Shown here: positions 4,905 to 32,700 of the stretch, piece after piece
Numbering within the stretch: the first letter of the stretch is position 1
How the letters are laid out: every line of letters starts with the position of its first letter
From: Cytophagales bacterium
Lineage (GTDB): Bacteria; Bacteroidota; Bacteroidia; Cytophagales; Thermoflexibacteraceae
DNA length: 32,723 bases
Reading direction: 5' to 3'
Assembly (NCBI GenBank): GCA_947457925.1
Contig: CANGYA010000021.1
Coordinates: 1-32,723 of the forward strand
Translations under genes and position numbers: made by a program
Notes under the pieces: generated by a model
Seen by the model: the letters and a program-made list of their open reading frames with translations, nothing else
The model's database searches: none
What the model was told of the DNA's origin: nothing

Positions 4905-5032
4905 TACCAAGTTATAAGTAGTATTTAGTTCAATGCGTAAAGATGTCATCTTTTGTAAAAACAGCAAAATTGCAAGTTTCTACACTTGTAAAAAGATGAC
5001 ATCTTTGGACTGTATCTAATCTATAATTGGTA
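4905..5032. mobile_element. MITE family 1, copy 1 (128 bp, TACCAA ends, TTA duplication)
   Basis: The element starts TACCAAGTTATA and ends TATAATTGGTA. It is flanked by direct TTA repeats at 4902-4904 and 5033-5035. Inside are two inverted copies of a 15-bp near-palindrome built on AAAGATGTCATCTTT (4939-4953 and 4992-5006), so the RNA would fold into a long cruciform. It is about 75% or more identical to the copy at 15296-15425. It has no coding capacity and must be mobilised in trans. Confidence 0.8.
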
Positions 5033-5193
5033 TTACAACAACTGTTAAAAAAGCATGGGTATAGCGAAGAAAACCACCAACAAATAATAGAACTATTGAA
5101 GAAGAATGAGCAAAAAGAGTATATCAAGTATGCTATTTTTAGACAAAGAACAGAAGACTTGGCTATTTTAGCAGCAAAAAAGCCAGAAATAAT

Positions 5194-5271
5194 AGAGTTT
5201 ATGAATAACTCCTTTTTAGCCCTCCCTGTCGGGAGGGTTGGGGCTATAGCAAAAAATTATTCATAAACTCT
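5194..5271. mobile_element. MITE family 2, copy 1 (78 bp, AGAGTTTATGAATAA ends, AAT duplication)
   Basis: Perfect 15-bp terminal inverted repeats AGAGTTTATGAATAA / TTATTCATAAACTCT are flanked by direct AAT repeats at 5191-5193 and 5272-5274. The interior holds a GC-rich hairpin (CCCTCC CTGTC GGGAGG) of the kind found on its own elsewhere in the window. Related copies lie at 16172-16288, 28717-28786 and 28788-28886. Confidence 0.8.
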
Positions 5272-5521
5272 AATGGATATAATTCTTTGTTCTTCTGATA
5301 GTATAGAGAGTGCCTTTGCTCAACTCAAACAGAACATTAATTGGAGTGCCGAATCACCTCATTCGAGCAGACAAATGACAGTGTTTGTACTTACATTGGC
5401 TAGTATTGGCAGTGCTTATTCGGAACAAGAAGCCAAAAAAGCCTTAGAAACAGTTAAGGAAAAAGACCTTAAAAACTACCGCCCCCAGTCCAACACAAAA
5501 ACTGGAGGACAAAAGGAGTGA

Positions 5522-10505: not shown

Positions 10506-11561
10506 TTATTTAAACACAAAACCATTAGGAGCTATGCCCACAGCCATAGAGTCTAATAAAGTACCTTGTGCATTGAACCTGAATACTTTGCCTGCACTTG
10601 CGTAGTTCATAGCATCTGCGGTGTAAATAGTGCCGTCTGTGTCTATACCCAAACCATAAAATGCCGTATGTCTGCGGCTCACCAAAGGCGTAGTAGGCAA
10701 TGACGTTGCCGTAATGTCCATAGCAAATACGCTGCCCGCTGCCCTGTAATACAACTTATTGCCTTGCGGATTGATACTCAAATAACCAGCCCCTTGCGAA
10801 GTAAAGTTAAAAGTAGTTTGTTGGGTAGGTGTATTGGGGTTGAAACGCACCAATTTGGCATTGGTAGGCGTACCTGCCCAAGACGGCGTACCACCACAAA
10901 GCACCCAAATATTACCTGTAGCATCTTGCACAATGCCATTTGGTCTGTCGCCTACCACTACATTCGTTTCTAATGTATTGTTAGATGGGTTAATAATAGC
11001 TATATTGTTATCATTAGAATTTAAGACATATAATTTGTTGTTACTTGCTTTCAAAATATCATCTGGCAAGTTCCCCAACGGAATACTGTCTTTTTGAGCA
11101 GGATTATCCAAATTGAAAATAGCTAGTTGCCCTTTTCTGCCAAAACCTATCCATTCGGTTACATACCCTTTGTTGCCCACTACTGCCATGTAACGAGGCA
11201 AACGCAATTTGGTAATAGGTGCAGCCACAGATTTTAAGGTATTCGCATCTGCAACTTCTATTTTATTACTGTTGTTCACAACCAAATACGCCTTATTATT
11301 GGCAATGGTCATAGATTGGAACACATCACCCAAAGGTCTATTGGCGTTTTCTAAAGCAAAAATATCATTTGTTAGGGTTTTTGTGCTGCGATTATAGAAA
11401 CTCAAAGAACCTGTAGGGCTGCCAAATTTGCCTTCGTTCAAAATGAATACGCCAGACGAGTAAGCCCCTGTAGGCGTAGGTGTTTCGTTGTTGCTGCTGC
11501 AACTTGCCAAAGAAAAGCCTAAAGTCAATAGGCTTGCTGCGGTAAATAAATTGATTTTCAT
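10506..11561 (-). CDS. DUF5074 beta-propeller lipoprotein, BtuG-like cobalamin-binding protein
   Basis: 351 aa. Lipoprotein signal with the acylated Cys in SLASCSSNN (residue 21). About seven beta-propeller blades follow, with YncE-like repeats such as KAYLVVNNSNKIEVAD, KGYVTEWIG, KLYVLNSNDNNIAIIN, GDRPNGIVQDATGNIWVLC and GTIYTADAMNY. In Bacteroides the DUF5074/YncE-like propeller BtuG is a surface lipoprotein that captures B12 and caps BtuB. Here the gene lies right behind a TonB receptor that has a cobalamin riboswitch, so the same role is likely. A 61-bp palindromic repeat fills most of the 107-bp gap to the receptor gene. Confidence 0.8.
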   Translation of the reverse strand: MKINLFTAASLLTLGFSLASCSSNNETPTPTGAYSSGVFILNEGKFGSPTGSLSFYNRSTKTLTNDIFALENANRPLGDVFQSMTIANNKAYLVVNNSNKIEVADANTLKSVAAPITKLRLPRYMAVVGNKGYVTEWIGFGRKGQLAIFNLDNPAQKDSIPLGNLPDDILKASNNKLYVLNSNDNNIAIINPSNNTLETNVVVGDRPNGIVQDATGNIWVLCGGTPSWAGTPTNAKLVRFNPNTPTQQTTFNFTSQGAGYLSINPQGNKLYYRAAGSVFAMDITATSLPTTPLVSRRHTAFYGLGIDTDGTIYTADAMNYASAGKVFRFNAQGTLLDSMAVGIAPNGFVFK

Positions 11562-11598: not shown

Positions 11599-11659
11599 CT
11601 GTAGAACGGACTTTAGTCCGTTTCTCAGTTGCACAAACGGACTAAAGTCCGTTCTACAG
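11599..11659. repeat. REPIN-like palindrome, family A, copy 1
   Basis: 25-bp perfect inverted arms (11599-11623 and 11635-11659) with an 11-nt loop. Each arm contains a smaller palindrome GGACTTTAGTCC, so the unit is two inverted small palindromes. It lies between the receptor and propeller genes and would fold in the mRNA. A second copy lies inside the riboswitch at 13840-13905. Confidence 0.85.
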
Positions 11660-11668
11660 TTTTGGGTT

Positions 11669-13711
11669 CTAAAAGCCCACCCTCACCGTAAAAGCATAAT
11701 TGCGATAAGGCATAGCCCGAAACTCTACGTTTTGGTAGGTCGTATCTAACAAGTTATTGATGCGGGCTTGTAGGGCAATGTATCCAAATTGGAAATTAAA
11801 TTGCTTGCTAACCAATAAGTTACAGAGTAGATAGGCATCTAAAGATTTGCTATTGTCCAATAAATAGTACCTTTTGCCTGTGTAGGTGAAACTACTGTGC
11901 AATGTCCAATTTTTGAAAGAGGCAGTCCAGTTTGCTCCGCCTGCGTGCAGAGGCACATACGAAAGTTGTTTGTTTGCTTGCTCCGCAAAGTTAGATTGTG
12001 TCTGAACAGACTGCGTATATTGGTAAAAAATGCTGCTCGACAATGCCCATTTGCCCACTTTGTAGGCATGATTAATCGAAAATTCGATGCCCTTGTTGTT
12101 CACTTGTGCCAAATTTTCAGGTCGCCAAATCCCTGTTCCCGCCTGCGGTGTCCACCTAATAAAATTGTCTATCAAACTGTAATACCCTGTAATTTCGGCA
12201 TTGAGGCGGTGGTTTTCGTTCCAGAGGTAAGTGTATTGCAAGCCTATTTCACTACTGTAGCCTTTTTCTGTCAATAAATTAGGGTTGCCACTGTTTACCC
12301 AAAATCTTTCGTTCAGGGTAGGCACTCTGTAGTTAATAGCTGCATTGCCTTTGAGGGTAAGTTGTTGGCGATTTTGCCACAGCAAATGGTACGCCACACC
12401 CAAATTGGGGGCAAAAGCAGGTTGATAATCTTGGACAAGGGCGTAACGGAAATTTGTAGAAACTTGTAGTTTTTCCGTTGGCAAATATTTGAGCAAAGCA
12501 AAAACAGCACTTCGCCATTGCTTTTTGGTGTCTGTGCCGTAGCCGTCCACATCTGCCAAAAAATACTGCACTTCTCCGCCCAACTGCATCGCCCATTTTT
12601 GCCCAAACTGCCTTGTGTGTTCTACTTGCGTTTGGTACGTTTGGGCTTGCGTATTTGAGCCTTTGCGTTGGCTGTCGTCTGTATAAAACAAATAGTCGTT
12701 GAAAAACGCCAATTTTGCCGTTGTTTTATGTGTGGATTGGGGCAAATAATATTCCAACAACAAACGAGTGGTATTGTCCAACATCTTGGCATTTGTATTG
12801 GCAGACCCCATGCTGGGTTGTACTTGGCGGTAGCTGTCTGTATAAAAAGTTTTGAGTGCTAAAGAACTCAAATTGCGGAATTGGTACGCCAAATTTTGCG
12901 TAAAACCCCATTGGTGTACGGCTGCGTTTTGTTGGCGTACCGTAGGCGTGCCGTATTGTGCAAGGTCTTTGAACTCAAAATCATTGGTTTGGCTGTTCTG
13001 AAAAATGGTAGTTTGCGAAGCCAAATTTTTATGGTAAAAATGGTATTGCCCCGAAGTTTTATTTAAGCCAAAACTTCCTACTTCTTGTTGAATTTGTAGT
13101 AAGTTTTTTCTTCTAAAAACCGTAGGATTGTTCAACAACACCACACCACCCATAGCAGCCGTACCATAATTGGCACTTGCACCACCAGCCCGCAAACTCA
13201 CTTCGGTAGCTGCGAAAGTAGGCAAAATAGCCAAATCGGACTGCCCCAAAGTAGGCGAATTGACGTTCAGTCCGTTCCACAAAACTGCCGTATGTTCAGG
13301 ATTTGTTCCCCGAAAAGACACCGTAGCAATGCCACTCATGCCATACTGCCGTACATACAAAGGGGCGTATTGGTTGAGCAACTCACTCAAAGAGCCTTGT
13401 TGGAAACCTAAAATTTGTGGAGAAATGGTAAGCACCCGACACCCCGCAGCAAAATCTTGCGGTTTTGTCCCCAAAACCGTAACAGCCTGTAACTGTTGAA
13501 TTTGGAGGGAGTCGGGAGGGGGGACATTTAGACCCCACCCCCAGCCCCTCCCCAGTTGGGGAGGGGTGTTTGCTATGTTTAAATACTCTCCCATTTTGGG
13601 AGGGGTGGAATATACGCCTAACATTGAAGTTGCATAGGTAGTGTATCCACACGCAAAAGATGGCAGCAGGCTCATAGCCCCGCCAATAGCAAAAACTAGT
13701 CGTTTAGTCAT
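11669..13711 (-). CDS. btuB: TonB-dependent outer-membrane receptor, BtuB-like (cobalamin)
   Basis: 680 aa. N-terminal signal peptide (about 1-22, SLLPSFACG). The plug domain spans about residues 75-190, with LSELLNQYAPLYVRQYGMSG, ATVSFRGTNPEHTAVLWNG, NSPTLGQSDLAILP and RAGGASANYGTAAMGGVVLL. A 22-strand barrel follows with the typical LNERFWVNSGNPNLLTEKG region and a C-terminal Phe (TVRVGF). It imports a bulky substrate using TonB energy; B12 is indicated by the riboswitch upstream and the BtuG-like gene downstream. Residues about 34-65 (rich in Pro, Gly and Trp) are encoded by a GC-rich palindromic repeat inserted in frame between signal peptide and plug. The start at 13711 follows the riboswitch by about 50 nt. 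Confidence 0.88.
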   Translation of the reverse strand: MTKRLVFAIGGAMSLLPSFACGYTTYATSMLGVYSTPPKMGEYLNIANTPPQLGRGWGWGLNVPPPDSLQIQQLQAVTVLGTKPQDFAAGCRVLTISPQILGFQQGSLSELLNQYAPLYVRQYGMSGIATVSFRGTNPEHTAVLWNGLNVNSPTLGQSDLAILPTFAATEVSLRAGGASANYGTAAMGGVVLLNNPTVFRRKNLLQIQQEVGSFGLNKTSGQYHFYHKNLASQTTIFQNSQTNDFEFKDLAQYGTPTVRQQNAAVHQWGFTQNLAYQFRNLSSLALKTFYTDSYRQVQPSMGSANTNAKMLDNTTRLLLEYYLPQSTHKTTAKLAFFNDYLFYTDDSQRKGSNTQAQTYQTQVEHTRQFGQKWAMQLGGEVQYFLADVDGYGTDTKKQWRSAVFALLKYLPTEKLQVSTNFRYALVQDYQPAFAPNLGVAYHLLWQNRQQLTLKGNAAINYRVPTLNERFWVNSGNPNLLTEKGYSSEIGLQYTYLWNENHRLNAEITGYYSLIDNFIRWTPQAGTGIWRPENLAQVNNKGIEFSINHAYKVGKWALSSSIFYQYTQSVQTQSNFAEQANKQLSYVPLHAGGANWTASFKNWTLHSSFTYTGKRYYLLDNSKSLDAYLLCNLLVSKQFNFQFGYIALQARINNLLDTTYQNVEFRAMPYRNYAFTVRVGF
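13521..13606. repeat. GC-rich palindromic repeat inside the receptor reading frame
   Basis: CCCCTCCCCA (13545-13554) pairs perfectly with TGGGGAGGGG (13557-13566), and a second smaller stem of CTCCCA/TGGGAG type follows at about 13587-13605. The same GC-rich hairpin class occurs between genes elsewhere in the window. Here it is translated in frame as part of the TonB receptor, giving a PPxxGRGWGWG-type peptide. Confidence 0.75.
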
Positions 13712-13759
13712 AAAGAATCCTGCTTTTTCACCCGAAAGCTGCGGGATTTGTGCGTTGCA

Positions 13760-13968
13760 CGAGGCAGGTCTCCTGACTTACTTTGCCTACGCCTTCCCAT
13801 GCCCAACGGCACAGTGGCTTTGATGTAGGTTCGACCTTGCCTGTAGAACGGACTTTAGTCCGTTTAAAGTTCTGTATTTAAACGGACTAAAATCCGTTCT
13901 ACAGGTAAGGTAGTTTACAGTTGCGGGGACAGTTTGGGACTTACACCCAATTCCCTTTTAAACTTTGT
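13760..13968 (-). ncRNA. Cobalamin (B12) riboswitch
   Basis: Read on the minus strand, the conserved parts appear in order: AAAAGGGAA, GGTGTAAGTCCC, ACTGTCCCCGCAACTGTAA, then a variable arm, then AGCCACTG, GGGAAGG and the B12 box AAGTCAGGAGACCTGCC (13763-13779). These match the adenosylcobalamin-type aptamer closely. The btuB ATG is about 50 nt downstream; between them a short GCTTT/AAAGC hairpin sits just before the start, so control is probably at translation initiation (inference). The variable arm is unusually long because it holds a 66-bp palindromic repeat (13840-13905). Confidence 0.95.
13840..13905. repeat. REPIN-like palindrome, family A, copy 2 (within the riboswitch)
   Basis: 29-bp arms (13840-13868 and 13877-13905) with one mismatch and an 8-nt loop. 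The outer 25 bp match the copy at 11599-11659. It falls exactly between the ACTGTAA and AGCCACTG blocks of the riboswitch and stacks on a short natural stem (CCTT/AAGG), so it lengthens a peripheral arm without breaking the core. Confidence 0.88.
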
Positions 13969-14056
13969 TCGTGAAAAACAAAGTACCCAATGCGAGGGCA
14001 AAGGTAGAGTTTTATTGGTGAGAAATACAATGAATGATAAAAAAATTAGTTTGACT

Positions 14057-14995: not shown

Positions 14996-15292
14996 ACAAA
15001 AAAGTTGTTGTTGTTTGAGGCTGAAAATTTATCTAAAAAATTAGATAAGTACACCAATAAGCACCGTTTTTTCTTTCAAATCAACTAAAATGGTAATGTT
15101 GCGAAGCTAAAAATTGAATAGTAGTTTAATACCTTCATTTTAGTAAAAGTTATTGTGTAGGCAGTTGAATAATTACTTTATGGTGTTGCAATAGATTAGA
15201 ATATAACTATTTTTATATATTTTAAAAATAGTTAAAAAAAATAAAAATTGTTACATACACACAATTTAGCTCGTATCAAAAAAGAATTATTG
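14996..15292. other. AT-rich intergenic stretch
   Basis: No gene is seen. A 12-bp perfect hairpin (15204-15215 and 15223-15234, TAACTATTTTTA) lies in it. The start of ftsX is on one side and MITE family 1 copy 2 on the other. I found no clear -7 box. Confidence 0.4.
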
Positions 15293-15295
15293 TAA

Positions 15296-15425
15296 TACCA
15301 ATTATACTTAATAGATAGTTCAATGCGTAAAGATGTCATCTTTTGTAAAAACAACAGTAAACTTGCAAGGTTTCAGACTCGTAAAAAGATGACATCTTTG
15401 GACTGTATTTTATTTATAATTGGTA
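15296..15425. mobile_element. MITE family 1, copy 2 (130 bp, TAA duplication)
   Basis: It begins TACCAATTATA and ends TATAATTGGTA, with direct TAA repeats at 15293-15295 and 15426-15428. The interior has the same two inverted AAAGATGTCATCTTT-type palindromes as the copy at 4905-5032, and long stretches such as GTTCAATGCG and GGACTGTAT are identical. It ends 32 nt upstream of the lipoprotein ATG, so it may supply or alter that gene's leader. Confidence 0.82.
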
Positions 15426-15457
15426 TAAACTCATTAATAACTTAACAAATTACTTTG

Positions 15458-28716: not shown

Positions 28717-28786
28717 ATGAATAATTCCATAAAAACCCTCTCCACTTGGAGAGGGCAGGGTGAGGTCATCATAAAAAATTATTCAT
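28717..28786. mobile_element. MITE family 2-like element, copy 3
   Basis: ATGAATAATT and AATTATTCAT (28717-28726, 28777-28786) bound a GC-rich hairpin (CCCTCTCC ACTT GGAGAGGG). It is shorter-ended than the family at 5194, and adjoins copy 4 with only one base between. Confidence 0.6.
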
Positions 28787-28787
28787 T

Positions 28788-28886
28788 AGAGTTTATGAAT
28801 AATTTTTTGGTATAGCCCCCCACCCAACCCTGCGAAACGTCGCACCGCCCACAGGGAGGGCTAAAAAGGAGCTATTCATAAACTCT
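28788..28886. mobile_element. MITE family 2, copy 4 (99 bp)
   Basis: Ends AGAGTTTATGAATAA and a TATTCATAAACTCT complement. Interior: GC-rich CCCCCCACCC / AGGGAGGGCT plus a TGCGA-TCGCA hairpin. It runs in the opposite orientation to the copy at 5194-5271. No exact 3-bp duplication was found at this copy. Confidence 0.65.
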
Positions 28887-28907
28887 ACTAATAAAAACAC
28901 AAAGACA

Positions 28908-32456: not shown

Positions 32457-32627
32457 TTGAATAGGTTTTTAATAAACTTCATGCACAAATATACATAATC
32501 GTTAATGGATTAAAATAGGGTAGCATATAACAAGTAATATGATGGTACAAAAAAAGGTGTAATCTTTTGTAGTGTCGTGCTTTAAAAACTTATAGCAAAA
32601 CTAATTTCTTTCAGAGAAAAAAGTTGA

Positions 32628-32700
32628 TAGTATTCAAGAAGCTCTCTAAAGATGTCATCTTTTGAAAAGATGACATCTTTAGAGAGCTTCTTGAATACTA
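32628..32700. repeat. 73-bp perfect palindrome
   Basis: Arms 32628-32663 and 32665-32700 are exact reverse complements around a single G at 32664. It contains two inverted AAAGATGTCATCTTT cores, then AGAGAGCTTCTTGAATACTA. A 36-bp perfect arm cannot be explained as a terminator (no T-run), and long perfect palindromes are unstable, so it is probably a young repeat insertion. Confidence 0.9.

Follow-up and report, generated by a model that had tools for sequence, protein, structure and literature searches.

The near-perfect palindrome at 13841–13904 is a REPIN, a pair of inverted GTAG-tagged REPs, and the modelled structure places it in the loop of an optional hairpin within the accessory region of a cobalamin riboswitch. 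Read from sequence and predicted structure, the probable history is that a RAYT mobilised the REPIN and that it was inserted into this loop; the switch most likely works, and the insert was probably tolerated and not selected. The window (the whole stretch of DNA analysed, 32,723 nucleotides) belongs to a draft Cytophagales genome of 329 contigs and 4.86 Mb.

The riboswitch was identified by a covariance-model search. It was a full-length match to RF00174 (model positions 1–189) and, at 82.8 bits, exceeded the gathering threshold of 31.5 bits. No second cobalamin riboswitch was detected in the genome. All RF00174 core blocks and the B12 box were present, and the full-length match confirmed the original prediction that the conserved blocks are complete on both sides of the palindrome. 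The RNA showed a much stronger fold than shuffled sequences (z −7.7). A long unaligned insert was located within the P6 accessory part of the match, a region described as highly variable in cobalamin riboswitches (PMC9600662). The riboswitch and the genes downstream of it were as follows.

13746–14005, minus strand: cobalamin riboswitch aptamer including the REPIN (RF00174, 82.8 bits, E 3.5e-19)
11669–13711, minus strand: btuB-like TonB-dependent B12 receptor, the putatively regulated gene (PF07715; TIGR01779 with E 5e-28, under the TIGR01779 cut-off)
10506–11561, minus strand: DUF5074 beta-propeller lipoprotein, BtuG-like (PF16819; surface layer/YncE-family chains, e.g. 8okv and 8p97, E 7e-35)

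The riboswitch is followed by the btuB-like and then the BtuG-like gene, a B12-related downstream context, and the btuB reading frame was open. Judged by sequence and model, the riboswitch most likely binds a corrinoid and regulates the btuB-like gene. It has the core blocks, the B12 box, the L5–L13 partners and the downstream btuB in common with the cobalamin (corrinoid) riboswitches of RF00174, but differs from them in an accessory linker that is extended with a mobile repeat.

The arms of the palindrome (13834–13868 and 13877–13911) were 94% complementary. The following elements were distinguished within it, and a second copy was found nearby.

13841–13904, no strand: REPIN CTGTAG...CTACAG, inverted REPs with a 16-nt spacer; ends and REP halves common to 20 other short-form copies (55–70 nt)
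13843–13864, plus strand: REP 1, GTAGAACGGACTTTAGTCCGTT, exact
13881–13902, minus strand: REP 2, GTAGAACGGATTTTAGTCCGTT, one mismatch, leading to a G-U pair in the transcribed strand
11599–11659, no strand: another REPIN of this family, separating btuB from the btuG-like gene

The mobile unit comprised 60 bp (13843–13902), or 64 bp if the conserved CT/AG is included (13841–13904), where a palindrome of 66 bp had been predicted. GTAG-AACGGACTTTAGTCCGTT was found at both ends of the REPIN, i.e. a GTAG tetranucleotide beside a short hairpin. Compared with the genome-wide consensus, the two REP halves had one mismatch in 44 nt.

Allowing up to three mismatches, the 22-nt REP half matched the genome at 120 forward and 120 reverse sites; a reversed control matched nowhere. 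We examined 36 doublets, 21 of which were of the short form (55–70 nt), the riboswitch REPIN included. The other 20 short-form REPINs had CT/AG ends and unrelated flanks. As the flanks were unrelated and the spacers variable, conservation of the doublet copies was limited to the REP ends. The majority of REP loci (28 of 30) were located outside ORFs of at least 120 aa. The same-genus genome G001 had 52 + 67 REP sites; a few family members had small numbers of them, and most of the sampled order had none.

In the source genome, at least two RAYT genes (NHVH...WQ...YTLQNP) had REPs of this family on both sides (C31:252–977 and C113:8909–9619), and a third such gene was located in genome G011. 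The former two reached 70.3 and 67.1 bits with NCBIfam NF047646, below the cut-off of 80, meaning that they are divergent members. The top structure match of the RAYT was PDB 4er8 (TnpArep; E 1.4e-5). These cognate RAYTs were missed by a Pfam transposase screen and were found by inspecting the DNA between REPs. Three Y1 transposases detected by Pfam were rejected as mobilisers of the REP, as none of them was flanked by it. The many REP sites and the RAYT genes flanked by REPs mark the element as a typical mobile repeat, as originally predicted. Its movement would be driven by RAYT.

The same arrangement is known from REPINs/BIMEs with RAYT (TnpA-REP): two inverted REPs, many mostly extragenic copies and RAYT genes that have these REPs on either side. 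The GTAG tag beside the hairpin is likewise the same as in the GTAG-type REPs of Di Nocera 2013 (PMC3733652). GTAG REPs in Bacteroidetes are not listed in that survey, and riboswitches are not mentioned.

Further repeats were observed. In long-form doublets (104–109 nt; loci L035, L047, L049, L050, L052 and similar), the same REP lay inside a further palindrome, AAGTTGCGTAGTACCT...AGGTACTACGCAACTT, perhaps forming a composite element. A separate Y1 transposase gene (L079, G000:C80:11200–15700) was flanked by CCCACGATT...AATCGTGGGCTAC. These repeats form a different GTAG REP family, which has a transposase of its own. The window also contained another palindromic family with AAAGATGTCATCTTT cores (4912–5046, 15282–15426 and 32621–32700, with a perfect 36-bp inverted repeat at 32628–32700). 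Long inverted copies (93–95%) with TTCATAAACTCTA motifs at 5190–5279 and 28780–28890 are probably a MITE-like element.

The linker between ACTGTAA and GCCACT was compared in 101 parsed Cytophagales riboswitches, including the one with the REPIN; parses of at least 99 nt (L025, L142, L153, L174 and L183) were excluded as regex misparses. The linker length was 96 nt here vs 13–58 nt in the other 100 riboswitches (median about 29). This variation in length agrees with the earlier assumption that the arm tolerates length change. The palindrome had also been placed exactly between ACTGTAA and GCCACTG. This was corrected: native linker of 10 and 22 nt (RNA sense) flanks the REPIN. Without the 64-nt REPIN, the linker measured 32 nt, and that of hairpin-less family members measured 30–34 nt. 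The joined flanks read ACUACCUUACGCAAGGUCGAACCUACAUCAAA and contained a 5-bp hairpin, ACCUU-ACGC-AAGGU, with a 4-nt loop. Hence, the short natural stem on which the repeat had been said to sit was recovered in the native linker. The hairpin is followed by CCUAC, which pairs with the GUAGG located after GGGAAGGC.

13834–13840, minus strand: GCAAGGU (RNA sense), forms the short native stem by pairing with 13905–13911
13905–13911, minus strand: ACCUUAC (RNA sense), opposite strand of this stem, part of the joined-flank hairpin
13825–13829, minus strand: CCUAC, inner helix of the accessory region (5' strand), complementary to 13786–13790
13786–13790, minus strand: GUAGG, inner helix of the accessory region (3' strand), complementary to 13825–13829

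An inner helix of at least 4 bp was present at the accessory position in 99 of the 101 riboswitches, and a local linker hairpin of at least 4 bp in 55. The optional hairpin holding the REPIN would be at the P8 position; this label derives from a second four-way junction reported in PMC11260477. A general targeting of small palindromes by this REPIN family was rejected: the mirrored flank complementarity of the 21 short copies did not exceed that of mixed pairs (permutation p 0.28).

Since relatives lack the hairpin, the palindrome is probably no inherited arm. From the linker lengths and the relatives, with one genome per species compared, we infer that the REPIN was inserted into the linker. 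It is improbable that the hairpin was instead inherited in the lineage, be it merely REP-like or an old REP that related genera share and that was refreshed by gene conversion. The linkers of G001 (58 nt) and G002 (55 nt) are also long and contain hairpins. However, the hairpin of G001, the nearest relative (same genus; BtuB 45–46% identical), was a different one of 30 nt; it was single-copy, and its likeness to the REP was at the chance level, so it was rejected as a decayed REP. The hairpin of G002 (same family) was REP-like at 16 of 22 positions, a value reached by 11 of 20,000 hairpin-preserving shuffles in a post hoc test, but it was single-copy as well. The remaining parsed family members had linkers of 30–34 nt with no substantial hairpin, and the close match of the REPIN halves to the genome-wide consensus also argues against inheritance. 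The hairpin in the linker of G041 was single-copy and was rejected as a repeat. A REPIN hairpin common to the homologous riboswitches was not found: where the original prediction had named one shared hairpin as the sign of an inherited arm, the other lineages had unrelated hairpins or none.

Repeats are typical sites of wrong joins in draft assemblies. In this 329-contig draft, the REPIN copy was flanked on both sides by halves of one riboswitch.

In the predicted fold, 28 bp were formed within the REPIN and no pairs between the insert and the rest, and the 55 pairs outside were unchanged when the flanks were joined; a secondary-structure prediction of this kind is blind to the kissing loop, the ligand and the cotranscriptional order. 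The kissing loop and the expression platform were located by sequence.

13924–13928, minus strand: L5 CCCCG, one half of the kissing loop; CCCG in 100 of 101 riboswitches
13722–13739, minus strand: P13/L13 hairpin GCUUU-CGGGUGAA-AAAGC, expression platform; TTTCGGG invariant in seven family members

The L5 consensus is UCCCG (PMC10653944). L5 CCCCG and the CGGG of the P13 loop were complementary by sequence. A downstream hairpin with CGGG in the loop was present in 75 of 101 riboswitches, and the P13 stem varied among relatives while TTTCGGG did not. The sequences of aptamer core and platform are intact. Together with the predicted fold, this supports a working switch, short of proof. An AGGA at 13718–13721, directly after P13 and 6 nt before the btuB ATG, is a possible Shine-Dalgarno sequence, and its placement would fit translational control of btuB. 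A GCAGG near the AGGA pairs with the B12-box CCUGC in the MFE fold.

The insertion can be pictured as follows. The RAYT system would mobilise the REPIN into the small loop of the optional P6-region hairpin, and the REPIN RNA would fold on itself into a 28-bp hairpin. By extending the arm outward from the B12 pocket, this hairpin would leave the aptamer core and the L5–L13 kissing loop able to form. The insertion would then be neutral or nearly so, and neutral tolerance is the best reading of sequence and model. The original prediction went further and held that the repeat was accepted because it folds by itself. An independent hairpin was indeed predicted, but as the cause of the acceptance, selection and chance are inseparable.

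We consider it unlikely that the REPIN was co-opted, either by altering folding, B12 affinity or the ligand response, or by stabilising the btuB mRNA together with the second REPIN. REPINs flank btuB on both sides, and REP hairpins have been proposed as mRNA stabilisers (PMC3733652). However, a 4.9-Mb genome with roughly 100 REPINs should contain some that lie within a few kb of each other, and further pairs at a distance of 2–4 kb were seen. The sole mismatch, C to U, leaves a G-U pair in the transcribed strand, but for a single change of this kind the odds by chance are even. An inactivated riboswitch with btuB constitutively on or off is equally unlikely. The bit score of 82.8 is below that of most relatives, and cotranscriptional folding could be delayed or led astray by a hairpin of 64 nt. 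However, the core blocks are intact, as are the inner helix, L5 and P13/L13; no pairing of insert and core is predicted and the btuB frame is open.

A repeat in this arm was not confined to one genome. G027 belongs to a different family within the order, and the linker of a cobalamin riboswitch that precedes a TonB receptor there measured 91 nt. This linker held a palindromic repeat unrelated to the REPIN (AGACTTTAGACATTAG...), for which G027 had 62 matches, often as inverted pairs, and the P13 hairpin was also present. The two cases hint that regulatory RNAs can acquire arms from mobile repeats. Repeats at the same spot of the arm were found in two of roughly 85 riboswitches (59 genomes, only the longest inserts tested), a sample too small for a rate. 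This suggests that the accessory arm tolerates, and perhaps attracts, repeat insertions. A long insert in a cobalamin riboswitch of G021 (L188, G021:C2:60472–60751) was rejected as a repeat, as it had weak genome matches and was located in another loop, the apical loop of the terminal hairpin. The G001 genome had another long inverted repeat (GTCAAGGTCTTCGACCATTGCCAACGTA) in its btuB leader, between riboswitch and gene (L065), meaning that palindromic repeats enter the btuB leader elsewhere too.

No report of a mobile palindromic repeat within a riboswitch was found among the open-licence papers searched. The Rickettsia palindromic elements (RPE) in tmRNA and RNase P RNA (Ogata 2002, as cited in PMC2229807) are comparable: as described there, they are also mobile palindromes in conserved structured RNA and are thought to be possibly neutral. 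They differ in belonging to another repeat family and in residing in housekeeping RNA, whereas the RNA here is a ligand-sensing switch.

The gain of peripheral helices by structured regulatory RNAs is mostly unexplained, and in this case an added arm can be traced to its source, a REPIN whose transposase genes are still present in the genome. The REPIN and the repeat of G027 make arm gain by insertion directly testable, with natural riboswitches that have and lack the repeat. A tentative and rather doubtful extension is that mobile palindromic repeats land repeatedly in the accessory arm of Cytophagales cobalamin riboswitches, provide it with raw material and decay to ordinary lineage-specific hairpins. 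If this is true, the peripheral arms of riboswitches would partly be domesticated mobile elements.
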